A stretch of 64,000 bases of DNA from a virus: IMG/VR virus record IMGVR_UViG_3300017991_000083, positions 27,367 to 91,366 of that record; one strand, written 5' to 3'. The position numbers and the translations under genes were made by a program. Shown here piece by piece: positions 26,404-64,000 of the stretch. Under the pieces are notes generated by a model that ran no database searches, was not told the origin of the DNA, and was given only the letters and a program-made list of their open reading frames with translations. How positions within the stretch are numbered: the stretch's first letter is position 1; each line of letters opens with the position of its first letter.

Positions 26404-28715
26404 TAGAGCTCCCTGACGTCTGCAACCCCGTAGTACATGTGCGTTATCATCCGAGGCGGCAGATCCCCACGGAACGGTTCCGCAGTCCCGCCGCCGGTTG
26501 TGGGCTGAGTCTCTTCGCCAGGCTGCCAGTTGGAGTAGCGGTCCTCAACATTCCGCTCGATGCCGCGGCCGGCATAGTAGCCGAGCTTAGCCCGGATCTT
26601 CGAGGTCGGCTGCACGTAGCCGAAGTGGTAGACCAGTTTGTCTGCCACTACCGCCTCTTTGTAGCCCGTCTCTGAGCGGACCGGGCGGCCCTCGCTGTCG
26701 ACGAACGTATTGAACGACTTCTCGTGATGGAAGCCCTGACTCCAGCGCCACATTCTCGGGATCTTCGACTCCCACTGAGGGCAGCCGACAGCGACCGTTG
26801 TGAAGTTCGTCCAGAAGTGATGGAAGCCCACGCGGACGATTGCCAGCTCACGGTCGTCTACGAACATCTTCATGAGGCGAGCGACGTCTTTCGGCTCCCA
26901 TATCTCGTCGCTATCGACCTTCATGTAGATGTCGCCCGTCACACGCTTGGCGATCGCGTTCTGCATCTCAACCTTGTCCTTCCACCGATGATCCTTGGGC
27001 GGGGGGACGAGAGTGATCTTCTCATCCGGGTCGGGATAGGCCGCGATCTTCTGGAGTGTCGCATCGGTGCTGGAGCCGCGCTCGTCGGCGTGTTGCCACA
27101 TCCCTTCGACTGCCCCCTCGACGATGATGATCTCGTGGGCGAGATCGTAGATGCCGTCGAGCGCCTCCGTGATGTAGGAGTCGCCGTTGAAGACTATCAT
27201 GCCGACGGAGAGCTTCGGGCCGTAGCCCCCTACCCGGAAGATGTCGAGGGACTTCTTGGTGCTCGCCTCGATGGTACACCAGTCCAGAATCCGGTCCCGG
27301 CCTCGGGCCACAGTCGCTGAGACTTCGGCGCGGTTTTCTGGCTCGAGCACCCAGGACACCTTTTCCGCGAAGTCGCCAGGGTCGCCCAGGCGTGCGTAGA
27401 AGACGCCGTCCCCGTAGGAACCACGGAGCACCGGGAGATCGTAAGCGACAACGGGCGTGTTCATGTAGAGCGCCTCTTCGGGGGGCATTCCGAACCCCTC
27501 GAACATGCTCGGGAACAGCAGTACGTCGGCTTTCTTGATGGCCTCGAACTTGGAGCGGTCGTCGACAATGCCCTGAACGTCGACGTAGAGATGGTTCTCA
27601 GCCCACTCGGGCCTCTTGGCGTCGAGCCTCTTCTGCTCGTTCGGGCCGACCTTACCCATCACCGTCACATGTGCCGAGCACTGCAGGGTCTCCGCAAGCG
27701 CATCGAACACCGCGATCGGGTTCTTGAAGTCGACCATCCTGGCACAGAACACGAGCTCGGCCCCGTACTCGGGCTCCTGCTCCCGCTCACGCGCCTCCGC
27801 CCTCGAGAGCTCGTCGTCTATCTCGTCCACATCATCGAAGATGGGATCGGCGATGCCCGCCAGAGTGGCGTCGGCCACAAGCTGGTTGATCGGCGGCTCG
27901 AGCACGAACCAGGGACCCTCGAAATCCGGAAGCCACTGTTGGGCCCATCTCGAGCTTACCGCGGACGGACTCACGATCCCGTCGCAGGTGAGCAGGCACT
28001 TCTTGTAGTTCGCCCAGTACTCCTCTGTCGCATCTCTGCCAGACGGATAGGTCATCCCCTTGAAGTTCGGGCTCTCGAAGAGGATCAGGTAACAGGGAAT
28101 GCCGAAACGCTCGGCGTAGGACTTGGCGAACTGGCCTCCGATGTTCGGCACACCAATGACGAAGTCGAACTCGTTCTCGGAGATGTCCATCCCCCATCGG
28201 GTGTCGACGATGCGCTCGAACCGCTCGAGGTTGTAGCCAAGGAAGTCCTTCTCGAACGGCGCCGGCGTGTTCGTGATGACCTTGACGTCCATGACCTGGG
28301 ACAGGATGACGCCAAGCAGATACATTGAGTAGCGTCCGCCCGTGTAGTGCGGCATCTGCTCCATGAAGATAGCGCAGCTCCGCGGGGCCTTGCTCGGGCC
28401 GTAGGTCAGATACTGGCGTTCTGATGGGAGAGGGATGAAGAGCGGGCTGGTCGCAAGCGCGACGAGCTGCCCGAGCTTGTGCGAGTCAGCGTTCTCGATG
28501 AACTTCTTGGGGATGGTTAGCTGATAGGCAGTAGGCAGTTCTTCAATGGAGATGTCCGGCACATCCTCATCGGCAGCGATGACGGGGCCGGACTCTACTG
28601 GCGTAGGGGCGGTTTCGCCCACAAAGGCCTTGCGACTCTCCAGCGGTGCGCCCCCGCCTTCGACGAAGTTCTTTGTGGGCTCGTCCCGCTCGAGGGACCG
28701 TTTCGTATCTCCCAT
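26403..28715 (-). CDS. Bifunctional glycosyltransferase (GT4 plus GT2), 770 aa
   Basis: Residues about 1-100 are a linker-like, Pro/Glu-rich N-terminus. About 100-490 is a GT4 domain with ELVFCARMVDFKNP and the Glu-x7-Glu motif in SMFEGFGMPPEEAL. From about 505 a GT2-like domain follows (VGMIVFNGDSYITEALDG; IIIVEG), with the DxD-type MKVDSDEIWEP and QGFHHEKSFNTF near the end. The fusion could make two linkages on one acceptor. It opens the sugar-transferase block, and its stop is shared with the next start. Confidence 0.88.
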   Translation of the reverse strand: MGDTKRSLERDEPTKNFVEGGGAPLESRKAFVGETAPTPVESGPVIAADEDVPDISIEELPTAYQLTIPKKFIENADSHKLGQLVALATSPLFIPLPSERQYLTYGPSKAPRSCAIFMEQMPHYTGGRYSMYLLGVILSQVMDVKVITNTPAPFEKDFLGYNLERFERIVDTRWGMDISENEFDFVIGVPNIGGQFAKSYAERFGIPCYLILFESPNFKGMTYPSGRDATEEYWANYKKCLLTCDGIVSPSAVSSRWAQQWLPDFEGPWFVLEPPINQLVADATLAGIADPIFDDVDEIDDELSRAEAREREQEPEYGAELVFCARMVDFKNPIAVFDALAETLQCSAHVTVMGKVGPNEQKRLDAKRPEWAENHLYVDVQGIVDDRSKFEAIKKADVLLFPSMFEGFGMPPEEALYMNTPVVAYDLPVLRGSYGDGVFYARLGDPGDFAEKVSWVLEPENRAEVSATVARGRDRILDWCTIEASTKKSLDIFRVGGYGPKLSVGMIVFNGDSYITEALDGIYDLAHEIIIVEGAVEGMWQHADERGSSTDATLQKIAAYPDPDEKITLVPPPKDHRWKDKVEMQNAIAKRVTGDIYMKVDSDEIWEPKDVARLMKMFVDDRELAIVRVGFHHFWTNFTTVAVGCPQWESKIPRMWRWSQGFHHEKSFNTFVDSEGRPVRSETGYKEAVVADKLVYHFGYVQPTSKIRAKLGYYAGRGIERNVEDRYSNWQPGEETQPTTGGGTAEPFRGDLPPRMITHMYYGVADVREL

Positions 28716-37095: not shown

Positions 37096-37744
37096 CGATG
37101 TCCTCCTCCCCCTCTTCGTCTCCCGGCTCCGGCTCCGGCTCCGGTGCGGCCTCCGGCTTCTGTATCCACCAGATCTGACGCTGCCAGGCGTCCTTGCCCT
37201 TCCGGAGCTCGTCGAGCCTCGCACGTGATGTCGTGTCGGGCAGGAGCCCGATGTCCAGACGGTGCATCGCGGCGAAGGCGCGGACGGCCTCCTCGATCTC
37301 GGGGTAGCGTGCGAAGTCGTGGCCGGCCAGGATGCCCCCGGGCCTGACGACACTCCACCAGGCACTGAGGACCCGGCGGTAGATCGGCTTGTTGTAGAAG
37401 TAGTCGATGTAGACGACGTCGGCGGCGTCCGGATGGGAGAACTGCCGGGCCTCGAGTCCGTCCAGGCGATGGATCTGGAACGCGGCCTCGTCTCTCTTCA
37501 GGGCCTCGGCCTTGACGTGCTCGTACATGGCATCCATGCGCTGACGCTCGCCTACGGTGTCACAGTTCGGGTGAGGGGCCCAGGGGTCGATGAGGACGAA
37601 ATGGGCGCCCTCCCAACCCCGATCGTAGAGGCCGAACGAGAGCTCGCCCTCGAGGACCCCGAGCTCAACTAGGACAGGCTCTGACTTGCCCGTCGATTCC
37701 AACAGTGAACCTACGCTCTCCCACTTCGTCTGCAGCGCTCCCAT
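37082..37744 (-). CDS. Class I methyltransferase-like protein, 220 aa
   Basis: VLVELGVLEGELSFGL (residues 24-39) fits the SAM loop in the TylF/MT24 group; ADVVYIDYFYNKPIYRRVLS and VRPGGILAGHDFARYPE match the strand 4 and 5 regions. Such enzymes methylate sugars or act near oxidised sugars. The C-terminus is a Pro/Glu repeat (PEPEPEPGDEEGEED). It overlaps the terminase C-terminus by 80 bases in another frame, yet both proteins look real. A similar enzyme is at 3414-4025. Confidence 0.75.
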   Translation of the reverse strand: MGALQTKWESVGSLLESTGKSEPVLVELGVLEGELSFGLYDRGWEGAHFVLIDPWAPHPNCDTVGERQRMDAMYEHVKAEALKRDEAAFQIHRLDGLEARQFSHPDAADVVYIDYFYNKPIYRRVLSAWWSVVRPGGILAGHDFARYPEIEEAVRAFAAMHRLDIGLLPDTTSRARLDELRKGKDAWQRQIWWIQKPEAAPEPEPEPGDEEGEEDIDGDT

Positions 37745-39467
37745 TGTCGCTATCCCCCTCTAGGGCCCCGAAATAGATGTCAGGGTCAAGGTGTATATCG
37801 TTCTCGATCTTGAAAGCAACAGCCGCGAGTCCGTCCGCGACGTCTTTGCTGCCTTTCAGTACTCCCTCTGTCGACTGACGCTCGTAGCTGAAGTCGGGAT
37901 GGTCGACCTTGTCCCCGCGCCTCTCGAGCTCTCTGAGCTCTCTCTGCAGGATGGGATGCGGATAGAACCGGATGAGGCCCTGGTAGAGCTTAGACTTCAT
38001 GGTGTCGTAGGGGGCCATCGACTTGTCGACACTGAGGGTACTGGCATCGATGCCGTGCCGTATGATGTCCTGGATGCTGTCAATCGACTGGAACCCGTCG
38101 AAGGTCACGTAGAGGATGTTGAACCCGTACATGGTCTTCAGGCGATAGACGAGCTGGCGGACCTCCATGAAATCGACCTCGCTCCCCGACTCCGACGTGA
38201 TCTGGAGCGCCAGGTCGATCTTGACTCCCTTGCGGGGCGTCTTCGGGTCGCTGTCGAGATTGCTCGTGATGTCGATGCCAAGCTCCAGGAGCTCGTCGAC
38301 GGTCCGCTGATCGTAGTGCGCGAACATCTGTTCTGCGTGCGCCATCACGAACGACGCGGCGTCACCGCGCTCTTTCGTCTTCCCTTTCGCGAGGTCGATA
38401 TGGACAACGTAGTGCCGGCCGAGCGAGCCCCTGAACCAGTCCTTGAACCCGATCGAACCGGGGCTGTCAGTAGACAGCAGGTCGCCCAGGATAGGATTCT
38501 CGCCATCGACCGCCTGCGGGATCGTCTGGCGCCGGCGGATGTAGCCTCCGATGTGGCCCTCGCCCTTGCACTCGAACGCCATCTGAGCACCCTCGGGATC
38601 CTCAGCGTACTCCTCTGCGAGGCCCTGGCGGTCGACGCCCAGGTTCACTTCCCAGGTCGCGTGATGAGACGAGAACACGTGGGGCTTGCTCTTGCCCTGC
38701 TTGAACAGGATCTCCATCAGGTCGTTATCGTGGTACTTGTAGGAGAGCAGGCACAGCTTCCCGTGCCCGCGGGAGAACCGGGACGTGATCGTACGCCTGA
38801 GCGCCTTGTACAGGTCCATCCCCTTCTTGACTCGGAAGGACCCGACCTCGTCCATGACAGCGAACAGGATGTTCAGGCCCTCGCCGGTGTACTTCTCGCT
38901 GTTCAGGGAGTGCGCCGTGATGCCGCGGGGGAAATTGATCTCGAGCTTCTTGCTATCCTTGCCTTCCTCGAGATCGACACCCTGCTCGGCGAACCAGTTC
39001 TGGCCCGTCTTCGGGTTCTTCGTGGCCTTGAGGATGCCCTTCAGGTTCGCGAAGAAGACGTCCTTGGCGAGCTTCGCGTTGATCGAGACGTTGACCAGGT
39101 CCAGCGGACTGCCCTTGGCCAGGCCGAGATGCTCCGCCGGCGACCGCATACAGAGCAGTCGGTAGATGACGTAGGCGAACAGCTTGGCGTTCGTCCGGTC
39201 CTTGCCCGAGCCCTTGCCCCAAAAGGCGTGCGCCTCCTGGATGTCAGTAGACCATTCGTAAGGGTCAGTCCCCAGGACGGCGTCGCAGTATTCCTGCTGC
39301 AGCGGGTACATCGGCTCGTGGAGAAAGTCGCGGAAGAACGTGCGGGAGTCTACTGGCTTCTCGTGCCAGAGCTCGTCAGAGTCCTTGGGCAGAGACCCAA
39401 ATGCGGACGCCAGAAGGGATTTGGTGGCCCGACGGACGTCGACGTCCGTCTTCTGTGCCCTCGGCAT
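37665..39467 (-). CDS. Large terminase subunit (TerL), 600 aa
   Basis: ATPase: Walker A-like FWGKGSGKDRT (about residues 83-93), Walker B ILFAVMDEVGSF (about 198-209). Nuclease: VHIDLAKGKTKERGDAASF with the first Asp, YVTFDGFQSID with the second, and KDVADGLAA with the third, as in RNase H-type terminases. It packages DNA through the portal. ATG 39467 follows GGGGGC and lies downstream of the strongest late promoter. No small terminase is recognised, although 39567-39953 and 41292-41633 are candidates by position. Confidence 0.93.
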   Translation of the reverse strand: MPRAQKTDVDVRRATKSLLASAFGSLPKDSDELWHEKPVDSRTFFRDFLHEPMYPLQQEYCDAVLGTDPYEWSTDIQEAHAFWGKGSGKDRTNAKLFAYVIYRLLCMRSPAEHLGLAKGSPLDLVNVSINAKLAKDVFFANLKGILKATKNPKTGQNWFAEQGVDLEEGKDSKKLEINFPRGITAHSLNSEKYTGEGLNILFAVMDEVGSFRVKKGMDLYKALRRTITSRFSRGHGKLCLLSYKYHDNDLMEILFKQGKSKPHVFSSHHATWEVNLGVDRQGLAEEYAEDPEGAQMAFECKGEGHIGGYIRRRQTIPQAVDGENPILGDLLSTDSPGSIGFKDWFRGSLGRHYVVHIDLAKGKTKERGDAASFVMAHAEQMFAHYDQRTVDELLELGIDITSNLDSDPKTPRKGVKIDLALQITSESGSEVDFMEVRQLVYRLKTMYGFNILYVTFDGFQSIDSIQDIIRHGIDASTLSVDKSMAPYDTMKSKLYQGLIRFYPHPILQRELRELERRGDKVDHPDFSYERQSTEGVLKGSKDVADGLAAVAFKIENDIHLDPDIYFGALEGDSDNGSAADEVGERRFTVGIDGQVRACPS

Positions 39468-47743: not shown

Positions 47744-47997
47744 GGCAGGTCCTCCCCAGGATGAAGACCCAGGACCTCCCAGGCTCTGTCGAACTCAGCC
47801 TGGCGAACCAGCATCAGGTCGTCATCGGTCTGATTGGAGTCGGCACGCTCCACGATCCAGTCACCGATGAGGACCGTGCAACCCTGCAGGTCCATCTTCG
47901 TAGACGACTGGCGTGCGTGCAGAACCGCGCCGTTCGGCTTCTCCCGAACGAGCATGTGCGGCCCCATAGGCATCAGCTCTATCCCGCTCCTGTTCAT
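47737..47997 (-). CDS. Hypothetical protein, 86 aa
   Basis: ATG 47997 lies within an exact TGTTCA-N5-TGAACA dyad (47991-48007), so regulation at the start is possible. The chain is beta then helix (GIELMPMGPHMLVREKPNGA; LQGCTVLIGDWIVERADS; MLVRQAEFDRAWEVL). Not recognised. Confidence 0.6.
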   Translation of the reverse strand: MNRSGIELMPMGPHMLVREKPNGAVLHARQSSTKMDLQGCTVLIGDWIVERADSNQTDDDLMLVRQAEFDRAWEVLGLHPGEDLPC

Positions 47998-48007
47998 TTC
48001 TTGAACA
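47991..48007. promoter_or_regulatory. Fourth operator dyad TGTTCA-N5-TGAACA
   Basis: TGTTCATTTCTTGAACA has both arms identical to those at the late promoters. It spans the end of the XRE-type regulator gene and the start codon of the following gene. Unlike the other three it has no AGCACTT box, so it may be an independent repressor site or a chance match. Confidence 0.45.
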
Positions 48008-48542
48008 CCCCCAGGGTCTCGCCCGGACTGCGGATGCCCTCGAACTCCTCGATGGTCATGCGGACGAACCTCTCCGCGATCACCTGGAGCTCTTCGGGCA
48101 GAACACGCGGCCGCTTGGTCCGGTTGTCGATGTCGCCGTTCATGTAGCTCCACCAGAGCCAGTCACTGGCCTTATGTTCTCCGTCTTGGAGCACTTTCGC
48201 AAGCTGTCTGTGCGTCAGACCGAGCGCCAGCATCGCCATCTTGAGCTGATAGCCCGTAGGGAACGGCTGTCCCTTCCAGGGATCCTTGATCTTCCGCGGG
48301 GGCCGGCTGCCGGCATAGAGCTTCCGGAGCTTGTCCTTGATCTCCATGTCGTCGGCGACTTCATCGATACCCCGCTCGATACGGCTGATCTTGGCCGCAG
48401 AGACGCCGATCTCGCGGGCGACATCGATGAGGAACCATCCTCGATCGTGTCTGTCCTTGCGGAACGACGTCTCTCCCCTGACCGGCTTGCGCCAGCAGCT
48501 CTTGACCTTCCCGCGGCCGTAGACCCTGCCTGTTTTCGCCAT
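47994..48542 (-). CDS. XRE-family helix-turn-helix regulator, 182 aa
   Basis: Residues 36-60 contain the Cro/CI-type motif (WFLIDVAREIGVSAAKISRI) followed by ERGID. The remaining chain has a possible second DNA-binding helix set (MLALGLTHRQLAKVLQDGEH). N-terminal 30 residues are very basic. It probably represses or activates phage promoters; the dyad family TGTTCA-N5-TGARCA is a possible target. ATG 48542 follows GGAGAT. Confidence 0.78.
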   Translation of the reverse strand: MAKTGRVYGRGKVKSCWRKPVRGETSFRKDRHDRGWFLIDVAREIGVSAAKISRIERGIDEVADDMEIKDKLRKLYAGSRPPRKIKDPWKGQPFPTGYQLKMAMLALGLTHRQLAKVLQDGEHKASDWLWWSYMNGDIDNRTKRPRVLPEELQVIAERFVRMTIEEFEGIRSPGETLGVFKK

Positions 48543-54654: not shown

Positions 54655-55079
54655 CAACTCTCTCCCCTCGAAAGATCGTCCTCGGCGTAGGGGGCACTCG
54701 GGCCATCAGGAATTACCCCCTGTATCCACCCAACAGCAGGCCCCGCTCCGCCCTCGCCCCCCCCCACGCCTCGGACCCGTAACACGCCCTCATCCCATAT
54801 ACGCCAATCCCCCGCCCCCTGGGACAAGGATTCTCGACCATCGTTGCGGCCCGCCGCCCTATGTGACAGTTTTCCTCTCACTTCCCCCCGCTTACAGCAA
54901 CTGTCAGACGATTCCTGGGCCAGCCCTCAGGAACTGAGACTTTTTCGATTTTTCCCTGGTGGCGGTGAAGGGGATAATGCACAGGATGGTGGATTTTCTT
55001 CGTGGTGGTGGAAGTCGTTGCAGGGCAACAACTTAGGGGCGCGACCTTGACAACTTGCGAGGGGTCGCTCAGGAATCCC
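54655..55079. promoter_or_regulatory. AT-richer intergenic region before the small-gene block
   Basis: No gene fits. It has a GACAGTT/AACTGTC dyad (54865-54871 and 54899-54905), the GATTGGCGTATAT motif at 54809-54797 (minus strand, shared with 3.4 kb), a GTTGC/GCAAC hairpin near 55020, and a TTGACA on the plus strand near 55048 that has no clear -10 partner. Base composition drops in GC compared with the next 2 kb. Promoters for 54654 downwards are expected here but I cannot fix one. Confidence 0.4.
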
Positions 55080-55591
55080 CTAACCGTCGACGGGGCGCCC
55101 GGTTGCGGCGCTCGAGGGCGCCGGCGCCGTCGGCCGGCCCTGGCCCTGGCCCGGGGCCCTGGGGCAATCCCCAGGGGGCCGCGGGTCGGCCTAACTTGCG
55201 ACCGGGCCGGCGTTTGGGCCGGGTCCAGGGGGCCCAGGTTTACAGAATAGCTATTATGCGACGCTGGCCGGCCTAACTGACGGCGGGGCAATCACTTAGC
55301 GCCTGACGTCAGGGCGCCCGGGGGGCCGGGCCGGGGCCAGGGCCGGGGCGATCCGGGGGGCCGGCCCCAGGGGAGACGGGCGACGGCCGGGCCCCGAATC
55401 CGGCCCCGGCGCCGGCCCTGGCCCTGGACCCGACCGGCGACACGGGGGCGTCAGGGGGTCCCCGGGTGCGCCCGGGGTCCAGGGGGGGCGCTCGAGGGGC
55501 GCCGGGGGTGCGGGTGCGGGGGTCCAGGGGGCGGGCCTGGGGGTCGGTTGCCGGCCTGGGGGGGGCGGCCAGGGTCGGGGGCGTTCGTCGA

Positions 55592-55683
55592 TCCTGGGGC
55601 GATCCTGGGGCCCTGGCGGGCGCCCTGGTCGGGGGTCCGGCCCTGGCCCTGGGGCGGGCGCTCGAGCTCTCCGGGCGCCGGCC
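55592..55683 (+). repeat. 92-bp exact direct repeat, copy 1
   Basis: Identical to 56113-56204, 521 bp away. It begins TCCTGGGGCGATCCTGGGG and ends CTCGAGCTCTCCGGGCGCC. Both copies follow a GGGGGCGTTCGT module. Confidence 0.85.
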
Positions 55684-56112
55684 CTGGCCCTGGCGCTCGA
55701 GCTCTCCGGGCGGGGTCCAGGGGGCGGGGGGGGCGCTCGAGCTCTCCCCCTGGGGCGTCGGGTGCGGGGGAGCTCTCGAGGGGGCGGGCCAGGGCGGGGG
55801 TGCTCAGGGTCGGGGGCGGGGGCGTTCGTGTCTCCTGGGGGGCGTACGGGGGCCGGTTTGGGTGCGGTCGGGGCGTTTGGGCGTTTTCGGGGGCCTTTTG
55901 GGGTCGCCGGCGGGCGTCAGGGGTCGGGCGGTCGGCGCTCCTGGGGGCGCTCTCGAGCTCTCCGGGCGCCGGCCTGGGGCCTGGGGGGGCGATCCTGGGG
56001 GCGTCAGGGGGCGGGGGCGCTCTCCGGGTGCGGCGTCAGGGCGTCAGGGTCGCCCCTGGGCGGGCCCTGGGGCCTGGGGCGGCCAGGGGTGCGGCCTGGG
56101 GGCGTTCGTGTC

Positions 56113-56204
56113 TCCTGGGGCGATCCTGGGGCCCTGGCGGGCGCCCTGGTCGGGGGTCCGGCCCTGGCCCTGGGGCGGGCGCTCGAGCTCTCCGGGCGCC
56201 GGCC
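56113..56204 (+). repeat. 92-bp exact direct repeat, copy 2
   Basis: Identical to 55592-55683. The flanks diverge beyond the GGGGGCGTTCGT module, so the unit was copied as a block. Confidence 0.85.
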
Positions 56205-56951
56205 TGGGGGCGCTCTCGAGGGTCGGCGGGGGAGCTCTCCGGGCGGGGGTCCAGGGGGGGCGCTCGAGCTCTCCCCGGGGGGCGCTCTCGAGGGGGCGCC
56301 CTTGCGCCCTGGGTGCAGGGGGCGCCCTGGGGGCCGCGGGCGTTTTCGGCGGTTTCGGGGGATCCCCGGCGCCGTTTTCGGCGGTTTCGGCGTTTGGGCG
56401 GTTTCGTTTGGGCGGGGCGTTTTCGGGGGGGCCTATTCGATCGCGGCCGGGGGCCGCGGGCGCCCTCGAGGGGGGGGCGCCGGCGCCGGCCGGGGCCGGT
56501 GTCGGCGGGTCGGGTCCGGGGGCCCTCGAGGGCCGGCCCTGGGGCGCTCTCGAGCTCTCCGGCCGCGGCCAGGTCGGGGCGCTCTCGAGGGGGCGGCCCT
56601 GGGGCGATCCTGGGGCCGTCAGGGCGCCCCGGCGGCCTGGGGCGGCCAGGGGTCCGGCCTGGGGGCGTTCGTCGATCCTGGGGCGATCCTGGGCCCCTGG
56701 GGGGCGCTCCTGGGGGCGCTCTCGAGCTCTCCCCAGGGGCGCTCTCGAGGGGGCGGCCTTGCGGCATATCCGCGGCGATCCTGGGCGATATGCGGCGCCG
56801 GTACGGGGAGCGCCCCCCGCGGCCCTGGGACCTGGGCGCGGGGGGCGGGTGCGGTGTTGCGGGGATCGGGGCGGGCGGGCGGGGGCGCCCTGGGCGCCGG
56901 CGGGGTCCTCACGCCGGCGGGCGCCCCCTGGGGGCGGTCCCGGCGGGCGTG

Positions 56952-57815
56952 CTACGGTCCCGCAATCGTCGCCAGGCCGGCGGCGCTCTCGAGCGCTCCG
57001 GCCACGGGGCCCAAAGCCACGGCGGCGGCGGCCAGTACGGCGGCGGCCAGGGCGGCCCCTGCTATGACGGCCAGGCGGACGGCGCCCAGGTCGGGCGGCG
57101 GGCCGGCCGGCCCGCGGGGGGCCGGCGCGGGGTCCGATCCGCGCCAGGTTGCAGGCGCGGGCCCCAGGGCGCCGGCCGCGATCGCGTCACGGGCGGCGGT
57201 TGCGAGTGTTCCGGCGCCGGCCAGGCCGGCCCGGATAACGCCGACCAGGGCCAGGGCCAGGGCCCCGGCCAGGGCCAGGGCCCCGGCCAGGGCCAGGGCG
57301 CCGGCCTGGTCGGCTGTCTCTGTTAGCTTGTCGCCGGCGGCCTCGAGGCGGGCGCGGCGGCCGCGGGCGACCGTCAGGCGCCAAACGGGCGGCCAGGGGC
57401 GCGGGCCCCCGACGTCGCCCCCGGCGACCTGGCGCCAGGCCCAGGCGACGGCCTGGGCGCCCTGGCGGGCGTGGTAGGCCGTCGACCTGACGGCCCCCCA
57501 GGCCCTCGAGCGCTCGAGCGCCCAGGGGCCCAGGGGCCGGGTTGCGATCGCCCAGGCGATCGGGGCCAGGTCGGCCAGGTGGCGGGCCCGGCGGCGGGTC
57601 CAGGTGCGGCCGGCGCGGCCGGCGCGGGCGATCCTGGCGCCCAGGGTGCGGGCGGCCGCGGCCTGGGCGGCGTCATAGTCGGCCAGGGCGTCGGCCAGGG
57701 CGGCGGCGGCGTCATCGGCGCCAAACGGGGCGTGTGATCCCCGGGCGGCAACCTCGGCGGCCTCGAGTACGGCGGCCAGGGCGCGGCGGGTGCGGGTGCG
57801 GGCGGTCTCTTTCAC
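56952..57815 (-). CDS. Ala-rich protein, 287 aa
   Basis: GTG 57815 sits behind the repeated AAGGGGGAGACA leader. Alanine makes up roughly a third of the chain, with Arg and Asp; long helices are expected (LAAVLEAAEVAARGSHA; DDAAAALADALADYDAAQAA). Two hydrophobic segments may be membrane helices: GALALAGALALAGALALALV (near 180) and LAVIAGAALAAAVLAAAAVA (near 255). It is the last of five such genes, and its GC content is the highest. Function unknown. Confidence 0.72.
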   Translation of the reverse strand: MKETARTRTRRALAAVLEAAEVAARGSHAPFGADDAAAALADALADYDAAQAAAARTLGARIARAGRAGRTWTRRRARHLADLAPIAWAIATRPLGPWALERSRAWGAVRSTAYHARQGAQAVAWAWRQVAGGDVGGPRPWPPVWRLTVARGRRARLEAAGDKLTETADQAGALALAGALALAGALALALVGVIRAGLAGAGTLATAARDAIAAGALGPAPATWRGSDPAPAPRGPAGPPPDLGAVRLAVIAGAALAAAVLAAAAVALGPVAGALESAAGLATIAGP

Positions 57816-57867
57816 TGTCTCCCCCTTGCGGGGGGGCCGGCCAGGAGCCGGCCCCGGTTGCGGTTGA
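57816..57867 (-). promoter_or_regulatory. Repeated leader 1: hairpin plus Shine-Dalgarno hairpin
   Basis: Minus strand from the previous stop: TCAACCGCAACC, then hairpin GGGGCCGGC-N5-GCCGGCCCC, then CCCCC-GCAA-GGGGG, then AGACA and GTG. The GGGGG of the second hairpin is the ribosome site, closed by a GNRA-type GCAA loop. Nearly identical to leaders 2 and 3. Confidence 0.75.
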
Positions 57868-58680
57868 CTAGCTGTTGGCGCTCTCGGCGAAACGGGCCGC
57901 GACGGTCACGGGCTCCCCCTCGAGGCGGGCGACCAGGGGCGCCAGGCGCTCGAGCACGGCCACCAGGGCGGCGCGGGCCCTGACCTCGAGCTCGGCGCGG
58001 GCCTGGTCGGCCTCGGGGCCCTCGGCGTGGATCACGTCCAGGGCGCCGGCGTCGGTCGGGCCCTCGGGGTCGAAACGGCGCCCAAACTCGGCGCCGGCCT
58101 TGTCGACGTCGCCGGCGGTATCAATGGCGGCCTGGTATAGCACGGCCTCGACGGCGCGGGCGCCGGCCTGGGCCTGGCCGACCCGGCCGCGGTTGACGTC
58201 GGCCAGGTGCGCCAGGCGCTCGGCGTCGGTGTCATCCCGGGCCAGGTCTCCGGCCTCGAGGGCGGCGCCGGCCAGGACGTCGACGGCCCAGGCCTGGCCC
58301 AGGGCCCGGCCCAGGGCGTCGGCCAGGGCCTCGAGGCCCCGGGCGGCGGCGTCGATCTTCGCCCAGGCCAGGCCGGCGGCGTACGTCGCCCCGGCGGCGC
58401 CGGCCAGGGCCTGGCGGCGGTACGATCGGCCCGCGGCGATCACGGCCGCGGCGGTGTCCTCACGGCGGGCGCCGGCGGTCCGGGCCGCGGCCTCGAGCTC
58501 GAGGGCGGCGGCCTCGGCGTCGGCGTCGCCGGCCAGGCGGTCGGCCTCGAGGCGGGCCAGGTCGGCCGCGGTGCGGGCGGCCTCGGCGACGTTGCGGGCG
58601 GCGCGGTTGCAGGTCGCCAGGTCGCGGGCGTCGGCCGGGGCGACCAGGGCGGGCGGGGCGGTTTCGGTTGCGTTTCTCAC
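57868..58680 (-). CDS. Ala-rich helical protein, 270 aa
   Basis: GTG 58680 behind leader 2. Nearly all helix, Ala/Asp/Arg/Glu (VAEAARTAADLARLEADRLA; AEAAALELEAAARTAGARRE; LARDDTDAERLAHLADVNRG). No Cys or His cluster that would suggest a metal site, no membrane segment. It may form a long coiled coil or a polymer. Not recognised. Confidence 0.72.
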   Translation of the reverse strand: MRNATETAPPALVAPADARDLATCNRAARNVAEAARTAADLARLEADRLAGDADAEAAALELEAAARTAGARREDTAAAVIAAGRSYRRQALAGAAGATYAAGLAWAKIDAAARGLEALADALGRALGQAWAVDVLAGAALEAGDLARDDTDAERLAHLADVNRGRVGQAQAGARAVEAVLYQAAIDTAGDVDKAGAEFGRRFDPEGPTDAGALDVIHAEGPEADQARAELEVRARAALVAVLERLAPLVARLEGEPVTVAARFAESANS

Positions 58681-58734
58681 TGTCTCCCCCTTGCGGGGGG
58701 CCGGCGCCCAGGGCGCCGGCCCGGTTGCGGTTGT
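58681..58734 (-). promoter_or_regulatory. Repeated leader 2: hairpin plus Shine-Dalgarno hairpin
   Basis: Same order as leader 1, but the first stem is GGGCCGGCGCC-N3-GGCGCCGGCCC. Both sides changed together compared with leaders 1 and 3, which is covariation and supports a real RNA stem. The CCCCC-GCAA-GGGGG hairpin is unchanged. Confidence 0.75.
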
Positions 58735-59481
58735 CTACAGGTTGCCGGCCGGCGTGTCGCCGGCCAGGGTGTCGGCCAGGGCCTGGGCGCAGCCGGCGAG
58801 CTCGGCGGCGGCGGCGTTGTCCAGGCGGCGGGCGATCGCGTCGGCGTCGCCGGCGGCCCCCCTGGCGTCGGCCAGGGTGCGACGGGCGGCCCGCATATCG
58901 CGGGCGGCCTTGTCGGCGGCCTCGGCGGCCTTGCGGGCCCGGCGGGTCGCCAGGTCCAGGGCGCCGGCGGCCCTCGACGCCCGGCGGGCGGCCTTGCGGG
59001 CCAGGCGGTCGGCGGTCCGGCGCTCCCGGGCCAGGCGGGCGCGGTCGGCGACGTACTCCGGCCGCGGATCACAGCCGGCCGCGGTCCGCTGATCCTCGAG
59101 GGCCTGGGCGCTCTCGAGGCGGGCGACGGCCTGGGCGGCGGCCGTCAGGGCGGCGCCGGCCTGGGCCTCGGCCTCGGCCTCGACCTGGCGGGCCTCATCT
59201 CTCAGGCGCTCGACCAGGGCCGCGGCGCCGGCCAGGACCTCGGGCGCCGGGTTGCGGTAGGCCTCGAGGCGGACCGTTGCCAGGTGCCAGGAATGGCCCC
59301 CGCTGTGCATGTGCGGCGCCAGGCGGACCCGGGCGCGGTCGGTTTCCTCGTCGGCGTAGGCCTGGACCTCGACGCGACCCGACCAGCCGGCGGCGTGCGT
59401 GCGTACCCCCGACCCGGCCGACCCTAGACGGGTGGCGGCGGTCCGGCCCTGGCCCTCTGTCATCCCCTGGAAGCGTGCCAT
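58735..59481 (-). CDS. Ala-rich protein with conserved phage N-domain, 248 aa
   Basis: The first 80 residues differ from the rest: MARFQGMTEGQGRTAATRLG, SGVRTHAAGWSGRVEVQAYA, GGHSWHLATV. This recalls a small phage protein group (family name not known to me). The remaining 165 residues are Ala/Arg/Asp-rich helices (EAEAEAQAGAALTAAAQAVA; KAAEAADKAARDMRAARRTL). ATG 59481 overlaps the previous stop (TAATG). Confidence 0.75.
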   Translation of the reverse strand: MARFQGMTEGQGRTAATRLGSAGSGVRTHAAGWSGRVEVQAYADEETDRARVRLAPHMHSGGHSWHLATVRLEAYRNPAPEVLAGAAALVERLRDEARQVEAEAEAQAGAALTAAAQAVARLESAQALEDQRTAAGCDPRPEYVADRARLARERRTADRLARKAARRASRAAGALDLATRRARKAAEAADKAARDMRAARRTLADARGAAGDADAIARRLDNAAAAELAGCAQALADTLAGDTPAGNL

Positions 59482-59813
59482 TAGTGGCCCCCTCTCTGGC
59501 CGGCGACGTCGCCGGCGGTTGTGGTGTCGGTTGCGATCACGGCGGCCGCGAATCCGGCCGCGGTCAGGCGCCGGGCGCCGACCCTGGCGGCGTCGGCGTC
59601 GGCGTCGGCCTGGTCGGCCAGGCGGGCGGCCCGGCGGAATGCGGCCGCGGCCCGGCGGGCCTGGCGCTCGGCGGCCTGGTCGCCCGGCCGGCGGGCGGCC
59701 GCGGCGTCGGCCGCGGCGGCCAGGCGGGCGGCCCTTGCGACCTGGCGGGCGGCCCGGTCGGCGGCGGCCTCGAGCTCGGCGGCGGCGTCTCTGATTGCGT
59801 CGGCGGTTGTCAT
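59481..59813 (-). CDS. Ala-rich helical protein, 110 aa
   Basis: ATG 59813 behind leader 3. Pure Ala/Arg/Asp helix (AAAELEAAADRAARQVARAA; QAAERQARRAAAAFRRAARL) with a short beta end (AAGFAAAVIATDTTTAGDVA). Related in style to the other cassette proteins. Function unknown. Confidence 0.7.
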   Translation of the reverse strand: MTTADAIRDAAAELEAAADRAARQVARAARLAAAADAAAARRPGDQAAERQARRAAAAFRRAARLADQADADADAARVGARRLTAAGFAAAVIATDTTTAGDVAGQRGGH

Positions 59814-59864
59814 TGTCTCCCCCTTGCGGGGGGCCGGCCAGGGGCCGGCCCCGGTTGCGGTTGA
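59814..59864 (-). promoter_or_regulatory. Repeated leader 3: hairpin plus Shine-Dalgarno hairpin
   Basis: Nearly identical to leader 1: GGGGCCGGC-N5-GCCGGCCCC then CCCCC-GCAA-GGGGG and AGACA-ATG. Position directly after a stop codon. Confidence 0.75.
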
Positions 59865-60224
59865 CTAGCTGTCGGCGGATGCGTCGCCGACGGTCCCGGC
59901 CAGGTGCTCGGCCTCGAGCTCGGCGTCGGCCTGGGCGTCGGCGATCCGGGCCAGGGCCTGGCCGGCGCGGAGAGTGTGCAGGCGCTCATCTCCGGCGGCC
60001 CTGATCCGGCCGGCGATCGCGGCGACGGTCTCGGCGATCCGGTCGGCGTCGCCGGCCTGGATCGCGTCGGCGACGGTGTGCAGGTCATCCGGGCGGACGG
60101 CGACGCCCCCGGCGGGCGCGGCCTTGCGGGCGGCGGCCAGGTCGGCCAGGTCGGCGGCGGTCTCACTGGCGGCGGCGGCCTGATCGGCGGCGGCGGCCTT
60201 GCGGTCGGCGGTGCTCTTGCTCAC
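59865..60224 (-). CDS. Ala-rich helical protein, 119 aa
   Basis: GTG 60224 behind AAGGGGGAGACA. Sequence is Ala/Asp-rich helix (ADQAAAASETAADLADLAAA; ADRIAETVAAIAGRIRAAGD). An alternative ATG at 60326 lies exactly where the transcript from the 60333-60362 promoter should begin, which would give a leaderless 153-residue form. First gene of the cassette group. Function unknown. Confidence 0.7.
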   Translation of the reverse strand: MSKSTADRKAAAADQAAAASETAADLADLAAARKAAPAGGVAVRPDDLHTVADAIQAGDADRIAETVAAIAGRIRAAGDERLHTLRAGQALARIADAQADAELEAEHLAGTVGDASADS

Positions 60225-60332
60225 TGTCTCCCCCTTGCGGGTGCTCCCCTCGGCGGCCCCGGCCGGATTGCCGGCGGCGGTCTCGGGGGGCGGTTTGTGT
60301 CCTGCTGTTGGGCGGTTTGTCGTCATGGGGGC

Positions 60333-60362
60333 ATGGTAGCACGCCGGCGCCCAGGCCGTCAA
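60333..60362 (-). promoter_or_regulatory. Early promoter (minus) for the Ala-rich gene group
   Basis: TTGACG (60362-60357), 18 bp, TACCAT (60338-60333) with the extended TGC just upstream. Same design as the dnaN promoter and the two plus-strand promoters. The predicted start at 60326 coincides with an ATG. Confidence 0.75.
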
Positions 60363-60661
60363 GGATTATTTTCTCCCCCGTGTCGATTGTCGGCCGGCCC
60401 CCCTCGAGGCCGGGCCGGCGCCCCCTCGGGGGGCGGCGTATTCCGGCGGATTGCGGGCGCACGTTGCAAGCGGCGTGCCAAACGGTCGGCGACGCCCAGG
60501 GGCCGGGCCTCGAGGGCGGGCCCAGGGGGCGCTGGCGGGGGAGCTCGGCGCCGGCCTCGAGGGCGCCCCCTGGGGGCCGCGGGCGGCCTGGGGCGGCCCG
60601 GTGTCCAGGCCGGGGGCGTTCGTCGATCCTGGGGCGATCCCGGGGCCCTGGGCGACGCCCT
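60363..60661. repeat. Non-coding G-rich spacer with GGGGGCGTTCGT module
   Basis: No gene. The module at 60612 continues into CGATCCTGGGGCGATCC, so this is a fifth copy of the family found at 55.6-56.7 kb. CCTCGAGGGCG and GCGCCGGCC phrases recur. Confidence 0.6.
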
Positions 60662-60806
60662 GGCGCCGGCCCTGGCCCTGGCGGGGGAGCTCGAGCGCCG
60701 GCCGGCCCTGGCCCTGGCGGGGGAGCTCGAGCGCCGGCCGGCCCTGGCCCTGGCGGGGGAGCTCGAGCGCCGGCCGGCCCTGGCCCTGGCGGGGGAGCTC
60801 GGCGCC
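60662..60806 (+). repeat. 36-bp tandem repeat, four units
   Basis: GAGCTC landmarks at 60687, 60723, 60759 and 60795 give an exact 36-bp period. Each unit is GGCCCTGGCCCTGGCGGGGG then AGCTCGAGCGCCGGCC. No spacers between units, so this is not a CRISPR array. Confidence 0.85.
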
Positions 60807-60835
60807 GGCCTCGAGGGCGCCGGGGCGGTTCGGCC

Positions 60836-60865
60836 TTGACTCGAGGCCGGCCGGCGTGCTACAAT
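60836..60865 (+). promoter_or_regulatory. Plus-strand promoter A
   Basis: TTGACT (60836-60841), 18 bp, TACAAT (60860-60865) preceded by TGC (extended -10). Very close to consensus. It points away from the coding strand into a region with no gene but with the 26-bp repeats and a terminator. It defines a plus-strand transcript starting near 60872. Confidence 0.82.
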
Positions 60866-61002
60866 CGCGGTTCGGGTCGCCCCTGGGCGGCCCTGACGCC
60901 GGCCCCCGCGGCCCCCGACCTGGGCGGCCCCCGGCCGGCCCCCTCGAGGCGCCCCCGGCGCCCCCCCGGCCCCCTGGCCCCCCGGCCATATCACGCCCCC
61001 TA
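60866..61002 (+). ncRNA. C-rich leader of the predicted plus-strand RNA
   Basis: 137 bases between promoter A and the repeats with no start codon and ribosome site pair. The strand is C-rich, the complement of the G-rich repeats elsewhere. Treated as the 5' part of the non-coding RNA. Confidence 0.5.
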
Positions 61003-61199
61003 GCTTGCGAGCGATATGCCGACCCCTAGCTTGCGAGCGATATGCCGACCCCTAGCTTGCGAGCGATATGCCGACCCCTAGCTTGCGAGCGATCCCGACC
61101 CCCTTAGCTTGCGAGCGATCTCGAGACCGCGACCTTGCGAGCGATCTCGAGACCGCGACCTTGCGAGCGATCTCGAGACCGCGACCTTGCGAGCGATCC
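61003..61199 (+). repeat. 26-bp phased repeat array, eight copies
   Basis: CTTGCGAGCGAT begins at 61004, 61030, 61056, 61082, 61108, 61134, 61160 and 61186, always 26 bp apart. The bases between copies change (ATGCCGACCC, CCCGACC, CTCGAGACCGCGAC) while the spacing does not. Each core contains GCTTGCGAGC or a close form, a short dyad able to make a UGCG-loop hairpin in RNA. In one frame repeated TAG codons block translation, so it is not protein. Confidence 0.88.
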
Positions 61200-61260
61200 C
61201 GACCAGGCCCCAAACGGTCGGCGCCCCGGCCTCGACAAGGGGAGAGACCAGGGCGCCCGG

Positions 61261-61297
61261 GCCCCCGTTTGTGCGGGGGCGTTTTCGTTGTGTTTTC
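61261..61297 (+). terminator. Intrinsic terminator of the plus-strand RNA
   Basis: GCCCCCG-TTTGTG-CGGGGGC followed by GTTTTCGTTGTGTTTTC. The 7-bp GC stem with a U-rich tail on the plus strand is a standard rho-independent terminator. It lies at the end of the minus-strand gene 61297, whose stop is in the tail, so the two opposite transcripts meet here. Confidence 0.85.
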
Positions 61298-62097
61298 TAG
61301 GTCGCCGGGGGCGCCTCAAGGGCCCCGGCGACCCGGGCCGCGGCCTTGAGCTCGGCGTCGCGGGCGGCCTCGGCGTCGTCATAGTCGACAATCCGAACCT
61401 GGACCCCCGGCGTCGCGTCGCCGACGTGGGCGACGCCCCCCAGGACCTCGACGGTCACAAACGGGGCGCCGTCGATCTCCAGGCCGGCCAGGGCGATCTC
61501 GAGCTCTCCGGCGACGTACTCCGCGGCCTGGCGCCTCGGCTCGATCTCCGGGAACTCGCCCCCCTCAACGTCGGCGGCGGCCGCGGCCAGGAGCTCGACC
61601 TCGGCTCTCAGGGCCCGGATTGCGAAACGGGCCCGGTCGGCCAGGGCCTCGGCGCCGGCGCGGGCGACCTCGAGGGCCTGGGCGTACTCCTCGACCTCGC
61701 GGGCGTGTCGGTACTCCGTCATAACTTCCTGATCCTCGGCCTCGAGCGAATAGTACGCCCTCAGGTCGGCGGCCCAGGTGTCCAGGACCTCGGCGTCGCC
61801 CCGGCCCCCGTGTACCTGGGCGCCCGGCGACACGTACTCAGCCAGGGCGTCGATCACGTACTGCACGCCGTCAGGCGTCAGGGAAGCGCCCAGGTACTCC
61901 CCACATTCTGCACAGTGCAGGGGCGAATCCGTTTCGCCCCCGCCGTCAGGATACGGGCCGGCCGGCCAGGTGTCGGTGTCGGCGTCATCACGCGACGGGC
62001 GCCGGGCCGGGGCCCTGCCGGCGGCCTCGAGCTCGGCCTGGATCGCGGCGGCGCAAGTTTCACAGTAGATGTCGGCCTGGTAGATGTAGACGTCCAT
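61297..62097 (-). CDS. Zinc-ribbon-like phage protein, 266 aa
   Basis: ATG 62097 has AGGGGGGC. The N-terminal half holds CETC in YQADIYCETCAAAIQAELEA and CAEC in DSPLHCAECGEYLGASLTPD, two CxxC knuckles for one zinc. A helical Ala-rich half follows (EYAQALEVARAGAEALADRA), then a strand end (VTVEVLGGVAHVGDATPGVQ). Similar proteins with the same CETC/CAEC core are common in phages, function unknown. It is the gene after dnaN. Confidence 0.75.
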   Translation of the reverse strand: MDVYIYQADIYCETCAAAIQAELEAAGRAPARRPSRDDADTDTWPAGPYPDGGGETDSPLHCAECGEYLGASLTPDGVQYVIDALAEYVSPGAQVHGGRGDAEVLDTWAADLRAYYSLEAEDQEVMTEYRHAREVEEYAQALEVARAGAEALADRARFAIRALRAEVELLAAAAADVEGGEFPEIEPRRQAAEYVAGELEIALAGLEIDGAPFVTVEVLGGVAHVGDATPGVQVRIVDYDDAEAARDAELKAAARVAGALEAPPAT

Positions 62098-62138
62098 GTT
62101 GCCCCCCTTGTCGGTTGCGGCCCCCTCGAGGGCCAGGC

Positions 62139-62166
62139 GGCCCCCGGGCGACGGCGCCCGGGGGCC
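62139..62166. other. 12-bp stem-loop after dnaN
   Basis: GGCCCCCGGGCG-ACGG-CGCCCGGGGGCC, a perfect stem between the dnaN stop (62178) and the next start. It has no T-tract on the minus strand, so a processing or stability role is more likely than termination. Confidence 0.5.
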
Positions 62167-62177
62167 TGATCGGCGTG

Positions 62178-63386
62178 CTACTTCTCGAGTCTCAGGGGCA
62201 TCAGGATCGACCTGACGCCCTGGGCGCCCTGGTCGCCGGCGGCCTCGATCACGGCCGCGGCGACGGGCTTGGTCCATCCGACCCTGATCCGCTCCCCCTC
62301 GGGGAGATGCACCAGGGCGGCGGCCAGGTAGTCGCCATTGTATCCGGCGGTGAACTCGGCGGGCCCGCCGTCGACGTCGATGTACTCCCAGGCCTCGCCG
62401 ACGTCGGGCGTCGACACGGCGACCTTGCAGCGCCCCTTGCGGACCTCGAGACGAACCTGGTTCGTCAGGGTGTCGGCCAGGGGGGCGACGCGATCCAGGG
62501 CGCCGGCCAGGGCGGCCCGGTCGAACGTCGCCCAGGTCGCCGGCGTCGGGATCACTTGACGGTAGTTTGGGAATGGCCCCTCGAGCGCCCGGGCGACGAT
62601 AGTGACCAGGCCGATCTTGAACCCGACCCGGCCGGCCCCGTCGGCCTCGACGTATCCGAACCTGACAGGCGCCGGGGGCAGTTTCGCCTTGCGGGCGGCC
62701 TTCAGGTCGGCCGCGGCCTCGGCGGCGGCCAGGGCCAGGGCCTTTGGCGGCACTATGACGGCCTTGTCGGCCAGGCCGTTGGTGCGGGCGGGGAGCTCGG
62801 CGGAGACCAGGCGGTGGCCGTCGGTCGCCGTCGCCAGGACCTGGCCGTCGCCGACCTCGACAAACACACCGTTTAGACTCGGGCGCGTTTCGTCGGTCGA
62901 CGTGCAGAACCTGACGCGATTGTCCAGGGCGACCAGGGCCTCGGCGTCGATCTCGAGGCCCGGCGCCGGCGCCGGCCGGATCGACGGGAACTCGGGCGCC
63001 GGGAATCCCAGGACCTTGACGGTTGTCGGGCCCAGGGTGAGCTCGGCGCTCTCCGGGTCGCCGGGCTCGGTCTCCCCCTCGGCGGGCGCCGGGGTCTCGG
63101 CGTATATGGTCACGGCCTCGATCCCCTTTGCGCCCTTCAGGACCTTCAGGAGACGGTCGACGCCCAGGACCACGGCCCCGGCCTCGAGCTCGGCGCCGGC
63201 CTCGGCGGCGATCCGCCGGGTCACGGTCACGTCTAGGTCGGTCGCCGTCGCCAGGAGCTCTCCGGCCTCGACGTCGACGGTCATGTACGCCCCCGACAGT
63301 ACGGGGAGCGTCGCCTTGTTCGATGCTACTTTCTTCAGGCCCCTCAGGGCGCTCTCCAGGTCGGCACGTGCTACGGTTGCCCTCAT
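62178..63386 (-). CDS. dnaN: DNA polymerase III beta subunit (sliding clamp)
   Basis: 402 aa in the clamp layout: MRATVARADLESALRGLKKV at the start, PVLSGAYMTVDVEAGELLAT, LLKVLKGAKGIEAVTIY, then PEFPSIRPAP, TRPSLNGVFVEVGDGQVLAT, ATDGHRLVSAELPAR, and a C-terminal NGDYLAAALVHLPEGERIRV. The last residues (RSILMPLRLEK) resemble the clamp MPMRL end that binds clamp-binding peptides. It tethers a DNA polymerase to DNA. ATG 63386 with AGGGGGC is the start; an upstream in-frame extension is poor. Confidence 0.92.
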   Translation of the reverse strand: MRATVARADLESALRGLKKVASNKATLPVLSGAYMTVDVEAGELLATATDLDVTVTRRIAAEAGAELEAGAVVLGVDRLLKVLKGAKGIEAVTIYAETPAPAEGETEPGDPESAELTLGPTTVKVLGFPAPEFPSIRPAPAPGLEIDAEALVALDNRVRFCTSTDETRPSLNGVFVEVGDGQVLATATDGHRLVSAELPARTNGLADKAVIVPPKALALAAAEAAADLKAARKAKLPPAPVRFGYVEADGAGRVGFKIGLVTIVARALEGPFPNYRQVIPTPATWATFDRAALAGALDRVAPLADTLTNQVRLEVRKGRCKVAVSTPDVGEAWEYIDVDGGPAEFTAGYNGDYLAAALVHLPEGERIRVGWTKPVAAAVIEAAGDQGAQGVRSILMPLRLEK

Positions 63387-63460: not shown

Positions 63461-63490
63461 AGTCTAGCATACATGCCCCCATGCTGTCAA
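63461..63490 (-). promoter_or_regulatory. dnaN promoter
   Basis: TTGACA (63490-63485), 18 bp, TAGACT (63466-63461) with a TGC extension. It lies about 70 bp upstream of the dnaN start and is divergent from plus promoter B, with 14 bp between the two -35 boxes. Confidence 0.82.
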
Positions 63491-63504: not shown

Positions 63505-63534
63505 TTGCGTCAGGGTCGGCCGGCGTGCTAGACT
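63505..63534 (+). promoter_or_regulatory. Plus-strand promoter B
   Basis: TTGCGT (63505-63510), 18 bp, TAGACT (63529-63534) with TGC extension. It reads into the 49-bp and 24-bp repeat arrays and has no gene downstream on this strand. Confidence 0.72.
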
Positions 63535-63589: not shown

Positions 63590-63715
63590 GCCGGCGCCCA
63601 GGGGGAGCTCGAGGGCCCCGACCTGGCGCCGGCCTCGAGGGGGCGCCCAGGGGGAGCTCGAGGGCCCCGACCTGGCGCCGGCCTCGAGGGGGCGCCCAGG
63701 GGGAGCTCGAGGGCC
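63590..63715 (+). repeat. 49-bp tandem repeat
   Basis: GAGCTC landmarks at 63605, 63654 and 63703 give a 49-bp period. The unit runs GGCGCCCAGGGGGAGCTCGA then GGGCCCCGACCTGGCGCC and GGCCTCGAGG. Two full units and parts of a third. Confidence 0.8.
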
Positions 63716-63743
63716 CGGGACCGGCGGCGATATGTCGCCCCCT

Positions 63744-63830
63744 AGCTTGCGAGCGATCCCGACCTCGAGCTTGCGAGCGATCCCGACCTCGAGCTTGCGA
63801 GCGATCCCGACCTCGAGCTTGCGAGCGATC
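63744..63830 (+). repeat. 24-bp phased repeat array, four copies
   Basis: CTTGCGAGCGAT begins at 63746, 63770, 63794 and 63818, 24 bp apart, separated by CCCGACCTCGAG. Same core as the 61.0 kb array, with different spacing. Confidence 0.88.
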
Positions 63831-63841
63831 CCGACCAACAC

Positions 63842-63875
63842 AAGGGGCCCCAGGTCTATAGACCTGGGGCCCCTT
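63842..63875. terminator. Perfect 34-bp palindrome
   Basis: AAGGGGCCCCAGGTCTA is followed by its exact complement. Hairpin formation would give a 15-bp stem with a TATA loop. It could stop the plus-strand RNA from promoter B or be bound by a dimer. Two more core repeats follow at 63878 and 63904. Confidence 0.6.
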
Positions 63876-63919
63876 AGCTTGCGAGCGATATGTCGCCCCC
63901 TAGCTTGCGAGCGATCCCG
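63876..63919 (+). repeat. Two further CTTGCGAGCGAT copies after the palindrome
   Basis: Core copies at 63878 and 63904, 26 bp apart as in the first array. They end two bases before the stop of the right-hand gene fragment. Confidence 0.8.
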
Positions 63920-64000
63920 TCAACCGGCGGCGGCGGCCGACGTGGGCTCTCGGTAGCCCAGGGGGACCCGGTTGCGAATCTGCCCCTTCAGTCGGTCGGC
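63920..64000 (-). CDS. C-terminal end of a gene entering from the right
   Basis: 26 codons and a TGA are open from the window edge: ADRLKGQIRNRVPLGYREP then TSAAAAG. The text is plausible coding and the stop sits just before the repeats. Nothing more can be said. Confidence 0.5.
   Translation of the reverse strand, partial: ADRLKGQIRNRVPLGYREPTSAAAAG

Follow-up and report, generated by a model that had tools for sequence, protein, structure and literature searches.

The window, by which is meant the whole stretch of DNA that was analysed (64,000 bases), runs from base 27367 to base 91366 of a virus record 91,366 bases long (IMG/VR IMGVR_UViG_3300017991_000083). Because the last 123 bases of the record are identical to its first 123 (window 63878-64000 = record 1-123), the phage genome is taken to be complete, as a circle of 91,243 bp. 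The virus is a tailed phage, which encodes a portal protein, a Mu-F-like protein, a tape measure protein, and a 600-aa protein (window 37665-39467) that matches phage terminases, together with DnaE, DnaN, a DNA helicase, SbcCD, and a primase; the replisome gene set includes DnaG, and RecA was recognized by inspection. Its nearest matches in the phage collection are distant, with at most ~36% identity for the DNA polymerase and ~27% for the terminase. According to a simple codon-usage gene call, 115 of the 117 genes lie on the minus strand, and the genes near the array described below as A are all on that strand, as a preliminary description of this DNA had noted. DnaE appears to be split (record 16420-19825) over three genes: one PHP-domain-like (18959-19825), one small (18402-18902), and one for the polymerase core (16420-18378). 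Five early proteins (window 56952-60224), encoded by DNA of ~80% GC, have an extreme alanine and arginine content, and none of the five has a Pfam match.

Three promoter-linked cassettes

The early control region contains, within a span of ~7 kb, three cassettes (A, B, and C; Table 1), each of which consists of a plus-strand promoter and a downstream array of a short motif, all in the same orientation. The arrays sum to 19 units (8 in A, 6 in B, and 5 in C). Arrays A and B lie inside the window, although B is absent from the preliminary description, and array C lies outside it. The promoters of the cassettes are among six strong promoters of the sigma70 type, all with an 18-bp spacer, which form three divergent pairs in the genome: the minus members precede minus-strand early operons, and each plus member has an array 139-218 bp downstream of it. 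A scoring matrix trained on the three minus-strand early promoters alone, and applied to ~182,000 positions on both strands, ranked the array promoters first (A), fourth (C), and sixth (B) genome-wide; the top five sites score at least 21.7, the sixth 14.8, and the next best site 14.1. Given these ranks and scores, a chance promoter match is very unlikely for A and C, while promoter B has a weak -35. The promoter scan found 4 against 0.1 expected.

Table 1. Features of the three cassettes. Positions are those of the window unless marked as record positions.
Feature	Position	Strand	Remarks
Divergent promoter pair, cassette A	60362(-)/60836(+)	-/+	
Divergent promoter pair, cassette B	63490(-)/63505(+)	-/+	
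Divergent promoter pair, cassette C	record 3177(-)/3258(+)	-/+	
Partner promoter of A, TTGACG-18-TACCAT	60333-60362	-	for minus-strand operon 60224 down to 56952
36-bp tandem repeat	60665-60810		4.1 copies, 99%; separates the two promoters of divergent pair A
Promoter A, TTGACT-18-TACAAT	60836-60865	+	extended -10 (TGC)
Leader A, untranslated	60872-60990	+	89% GC, C-rich on plus strand; no six-frame coding signal
Array A	60992-61206	+	eight 26-bp units preceded by a partial unit; cores 61004-61197; exact CTTGCGAGCGAT at 61004, 61030, 61056, 61082, 61108, 61134, 61160, and 61186
Terminator A, intrinsic	61261-61290	+	stem GCCCCCGTTTGTGCGGGGGC + GTTTTCGTTG; 8 pairs, 7 G-C; T-rich tail
Partner promoter of B, TTGACA-18-TAGACT	63461-63490	-	dnaN operon
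Promoter B, TTGCGT-18-TAGACT	63505-63534	+	extended -10
49-bp tandem repeats in leader B	63593-63716	+	
Array B, part one	63746-63829	+	four cores, 24-bp steps
Palindrome AAGGGGCCCCAGGTCTATAGACCTGGGGCCCCTT (perfect, 34 nt), an insertion in array B	63842-63875		folds as 15-bp stem
Array B, part two	63878-63915	+	two cores, 26-bp step
Array C	record 3505-3618	+	five units; steps 26, 26, 26, and 24
65-aa gene	record 3665-3862	+	

Cassette A had been described as a non-coding transcription unit, in which a near-consensus plus-strand promoter with an extended -10 and an intrinsic terminator enclose eight cores at 26-bp intervals and no gene, and each of these elements was recovered. TG stands ahead of the -10 of its promoter, the T tail of its terminator is present on the plus strand only, and none of the six frames of the interval 60872-61287 carries a coding signal. 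The leader has no excess fold (z -0.1), and the tandem repeat of the array has a TRF score of 227. The description as a non-coding unit is strengthened by the recurrence of promoter and array together in three cassettes and by the top ranks of the promoters genome-wide. Enclosure by both a promoter and a terminator is particular to A, since a clear intrinsic terminator is missing from cassette B, and cassette C reads into a gene.

Promoter B has a CCGGCGTGCTA block in common with promoter A. Its cassette shows no coding signal in any frame, and its array extends over window 63746-63915, within which the circle closes (window 63878-63915 = record bases 1-38). The palindrome inserted in array B has no U-run and is a doubtful terminator. 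The phage that carries this perfect palindrome also has genes for SbcC- and SbcD-like proteins, a nuclease pair that cleaves palindromes.

Array C has two exact cores and three with one substitution (CTTGGGAGCGAT or CTTGTGAGCGAT), and constitutes the 5' leader of a gene for a 65-aa protein. It is the only gene on the plus strand of the early region that is called with confidence; its coding score is 0.162 per codon in its own frame and negative in the other frames, and it is preceded by an SD-like GGGGGG. The protein is predicted to form a helical hairpin of two long helices (pLDDT 85.7), and neither a relative nor a fold match was detected for it. The two-helix model prompted a comparison with Rop, and a Rop-like identity was dropped, as Foldseek gave no significant match.

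A conserved motif of about 22 bases

The exact 12-mer occurs 16 times in the unique circle, always on the plus strand (8 copies in A, 6 in B, and 2 in C); the record holds 18 matches, two of which are double-counted through the terminal overlap. Outside the arrays, a search within one mismatch found no plus-strand copy and a single copy on the minus strand. An alignment of all 19 units, which represent 16 distinct contexts, indicates that the conserved unit is longer than the 12-mer, and has the form GNCC-N4-AG-CTTGNGAGCGAT (~22 bases). In the aligned core (A-G-C-T-T-G-N-G-A-G-C-G-A-T), 11 of the 12 core columns are invariant and the A at -2 is found in 16/16 contexts. Nearly as constant is a second block, G-N-C-C, which occupies -9 to -6 (G in 15/16, the first C in 14/16, and the second in 15/16), whereas most linker columns vary across contexts.

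The linkers had been described as differing from unit to unit, and they do vary, but not freely, as the second block and the A at -2 are kept and the linkers occur as runs of identical copies. Because identical linkers occur in runs, it is clear that the arrays also expand by (recent) tandem duplication, and for this reason the 16 contexts are not all independent. Such runs would be expected as ongoing local duplication if the arrays were a neutral expansion, that is, a build-up of short tandem duplications that serve no function in GC-rich non-coding sequence, and the 36- and 49-bp tandem repeats in the same intergenic regions are in keeping with this explanation. Nevertheless, it is highly improbable, because the core has stayed invariant at 11 of its 12 positions over the 16 contexts, most of the linker columns being variable, and because three separate promoter-linked sites carry the motif in a single orientation. 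Peptide-coding repeats were likewise considered and rejected, as 26-bp steps shift the reading frame and the coding scores are negative.

A constant spacing of the cores, from which selection on phase had been proposed, holds for array A, where every step is 26 bp, but not for array B, with its 24-bp steps, or for the final 24-bp step of array C. Steps of 26 and 24 bp correspond to 2.48 and 2.29 helical turns, respectively. In the 24-bp units, two bases are missing from the stretch between CGAT and GNCC; the length of the unit changes thereby and the distance from block to core does not. Since it is this distance, and not the unit length, that is retained, selection on phase is not supported, and selection would be better described as acting on the ~22-base motif.

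Possible roles of the arrays as RNA or as DNA

The preliminary description had also suggested a string of small RNA hairpins. Two copies of GCUUGCGAGC can pair with each other along 10 bp, G.U pairs included, as the minus-strand copy cannot. Because neighbouring cores pair via G.U on the plus strand only, the plus strand of A and B folds better than the minus strand (z -6.3 and -8.3 against dinucleotide shuffles, versus -1.4 and -3.4, respectively), although these z-scores count one coincidence repeatedly, that of one 14-mer, 1.2% of whose shuffles self-pair too. The suggestion thus holds for the pairing of plus-strand cores in A and B, but fails for array C, whose plus strand shows no excess structure (z -0.06), and for the conserved bases, which do not track the stem. 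Conservation runs asymmetrically beyond the self-pairing block, and the lone variable base of the core is at the centre of that block, so that the hairpin is not the conserved thing. If RNA rather than DNA does the work, the motif is more likely to be read as sequence, by a protein or an RNA, than as a hairpin.

Several features lean toward RNA as the working form of the arrays: each of the three cassettes has a promoter with the array in its orientation, A ends in a terminator, A and B lack genes, and the fold is plus-strand-specific. Counted against RNA are the lack of excess fold in C, of a clear terminator in B, of a target, and of a relative of the 65-aa protein, as well as the resemblance of a tandem, gapped, asymmetric 22-bp motif to the site of a DNA-binding protein.

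CsrB-type motif-array sponge RNAs are already known. Like CsrB, CsrC, and RsmZ, the partners of CsrA, cassettes A and B would specify gene-less RNAs with many copies of a short motif and varied linkers, accompanied by an mRNA leader with fewer or weaker copies. Judged from their sequence, A and B fit the anatomy of a CsrA-type sponge, a gene-less transcript with many copies of one motif, to which a protein would bind. In contrast to these RNAs, the motif here is not GGA-based and has no Rfam match, and the role of CsrA is an analogy; where CsrA-binding sponges carry multiple GGA (ANGGA) motifs in loops, GGA is counted 0 times in array A, once in the A transcript, and 5 times in B, with A.GGA in neither.

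As the likeliest explanation, though with slightly less than an even chance of being right, we tentatively propose that the motif arrays function at the RNA level, as sponge RNAs and a regulated leader that follow a CsrB-like logic and are no relatives of CsrB. Host RNA polymerase would start at the strong sigma70-type plus promoter of each cassette and make a leader RNA with 5 to 8 tandem copies of the 22-nt motif GNCC-N4-AG-CUUGNGAGCGAU. The gene-less RNAs of A and B would be sponges (decoys) that titrate a motif-binding regulator, and array C, three of whose five units are degenerate, would be the target leader of that regulator, ahead of the gene for the 65-aa helical hairpin. This division into sponges and target is suggested by the weaker copies in the mRNA leader of C than in the gene-less A and B. 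We infer that the RNAs are made and act in trans, the candidate binding partner being a host factor or the 65-aa protein whose gene follows array C. The C leader possibly belongs to the gene of the regulator itself, the whole resembling CsrA with CsrB/CsrC except for an unrelated motif. The full circuit, self-contained and encoded by the phage, in which a new 22-nt RNA motif, the sponges A and B, and the weak-copy leader C, controlling a 65-aa two-helix RNA-binding protein of a new class, would together time the early genes, is quite unlikely as a whole.

When compared with the phage ribosome-binding sites, the core matched no better than shuffled controls, and no target was found in this way. 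CCCCU loops are exposed in the array RNAs of all three cassettes, and AGGGGG serves as a ribosome-binding site in early genes. As anti-Shine-Dalgarno elements these loops are a lead only, for their pairing is mildly above that of shuffled loops (~2.7 sd in B, 2.2 in C, and 0.7 in A) and the remaining linkers lack the run.

The main rival is a set of DNA sites, iterons or operators, through which transcription passes. If the DNA rather than the RNA were the working form, the arrays could be double-stranded sites for a phage DNA-binding protein (of an operator, roadblock, or partition type), and the plus promoters would be those controlled. Such a protein would suit the asymmetric motif of 22 bp, whose core is invariant and whose second block keeps its distance, the arrays occupy exactly the three intergenic regions that hold divergent early promoters, and HTH proteins are encoded at window 47994-48542 and record 26587-27501. 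We consider a DNA-site array somewhat unlikely, however, as the sites lie downstream of the plus promoters and not over them, and as the promoter and terminator of A, with no gene between them, would be left unexplained. A partition-type role is further opposed by the genome having no ParB- or ParA-family (AAA_31) gene; the search for ParABS components gave no PF02195 or PF13614 match, with positive controls. L5-type stoperators are not known to form tandem arrays, and 19/19 units lie within the three clusters here. Cluster A mycobacteriophage stoperators share with the motif an asymmetric site of 13-mer size oriented with transcription, but L5-type stoperators are spread through the genome (PMC9283540), as opposed to three tandem clusters in a ~7-kb region here, and no tyrosine integrase was found in this phage.

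The arrays might also be iterons for an O-like initiator within transcription-activated replication origins, which gene-less transcription would open or prime, as at ori-lambda. The units are tandem and iteron-sized, and the 22-bp extended motif in its three direct-repeat clusters agrees with iterons as direct repeats of ~17-22 bp. The phage encodes its own replisome (DnaE, DnaN, DnaG, RecA), and a 304-aa winged-helix protein (record 26587-27501), whose structure model is too poor for use, has a weak match to phrog_270 'replication initiation protein' (E=0.028) and to HTH_20 (E=9e-4); its gene lies three genes upstream of a DnaB-like gene. In lambda, transcription is required across the four 19-bp iterons of ori (PMC3985674), and a non-coding-RNA origin is used by some mycobacteriophage prophages (PMC7157519). 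The lambda origin thus resembles the present arrays in its tandem iteron-size repeats crossed by early transcription, and in a phage-borne winged-helix protein and helicase (PMC3985674). Because lambda combines iterons and transcription, an origin is kept as an explanation, with the 304-aa protein as the candidate initiator. It is unlikely all the same, for the clusters here are three within ~7 kb and, unlike that of lambda, are outside the candidate initiator gene. Their steps of 2.48 and 2.29 turns do not give the helical-phase spacing of cooperative binding, and half-turn separation abolishes cooperative Rep binding on plasmid iterons (PMC4980987). Moreover, no adjacent AT-rich unwinding region is found at A or B (lowest 60-bp GC 57 and 50%, respectively), C alone having such a tract (37%); no Rep_3 initiator was found in the genome; and the turning point of the cumulative GC skew is near window 54,000, away from the arrays.

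Repeat RNAs of phages, of the pseudo-ToxI or type III antitoxin kind, are already known (PMC3475682, PMC5086642), from which the GC-rich, 24-26-nt units described here differ in having no resemblance to ToxI. Rfam gave no match for A even at E<=5 and only chance-level matches for C. No ToxN match was found in the genome, and a control search was equally without a match, so that this result is uninformative; a phage mimic would in any case require no ToxN-like endoribonuclease as its neighbour. Racr and other solitary CRISPR repeat units (PMC10651486) are likewise small phage non-coding RNAs right behind a promoter; here, in contrast, 12-14-nt cores form a tandem array with similar linkers, in which no CRISPR-repeat-like unit was recognized.

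Searches for relatives and further features of the genome

A blastn search of 50,697 phage and 72,556 plasmid records, in collections from which near-identical records of the same genome may be missing, gave no match. No pair of cores 8-18 nt apart was found in IMG/VR, and the same two-core search in 84,980 genomes gave one chance match, in an apparently ordinary coding region of a Helicobacter MAG. Single-protein scans with the portal protein, DnaN, and DnaE yielded no close relative, and no comparable non-coding array was seen at 80 distant DnaN loci. Three loose cores (CTTGNGAGC) occur in 63 viral contigs, mostly within coding repeats or short simple repeats. One viral contig of 75 kb (L118) has three perfect, non-coding 24-bp units with CTTGAGAGCGAT (794-868), and is not counted as a relative, as about one such match is expected by chance (an estimate). 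A phage contig (L131, 3990-4105) has a non-coding CCTTGAGAGCAC array with 22-24 bp steps and variable linkers, which is superficially similar in design and unrelated; by inspection, it lies near a RecA/AAA-like ATPase gene.

To our knowledge, neither the 22-nt motif nor the triple promoter-array design has a precedent. Few phage non-coding RNAs are known to act through motif multiplicity or mimicry (pseudo-ToxI, RNA anti-CRISPRs), and here a single genome combines three cassettes built alike with a clear motif and, beside one of the cassettes, a gene for a candidate cognate protein. If they are an RNA sponge system, the cassettes would represent a new regulatory module; if they are a DNA array, they would be an unusual triple cluster of promoter-crossed sites in a phage lineage without known close relatives.

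Three other features of the genome were observed. A 2.3-kb non-coding stretch (window 54655-56951), with ~71-81% GC and packed with GGGGGCGCTCTCGAG-type repeats, lies near the minimum of the cumulative GC skew, and could be a replication origin or terminus. An unusual G5 ribosome-binding site (AGGGGG) precedes 12 of the 14 genes in the three early operons (window 56952-63386, record 43-3082), as compared with 27 of 103 genes elsewhere in the genome (Fisher p 3e-5); only 5% of random 20-mers within early-operon genes contain G5. Lastly, the palindrome TGTTC-N7-GAACA is present in three copies, one between the divergent promoters of cassette C (record 3222-3238), one just upstream of a minus-strand gene with a called start at 33615 (window ~33635), and one at the 3' end of the HTH gene 47994-48542 (window ~47991), a trio that looks like a repressor operator set.
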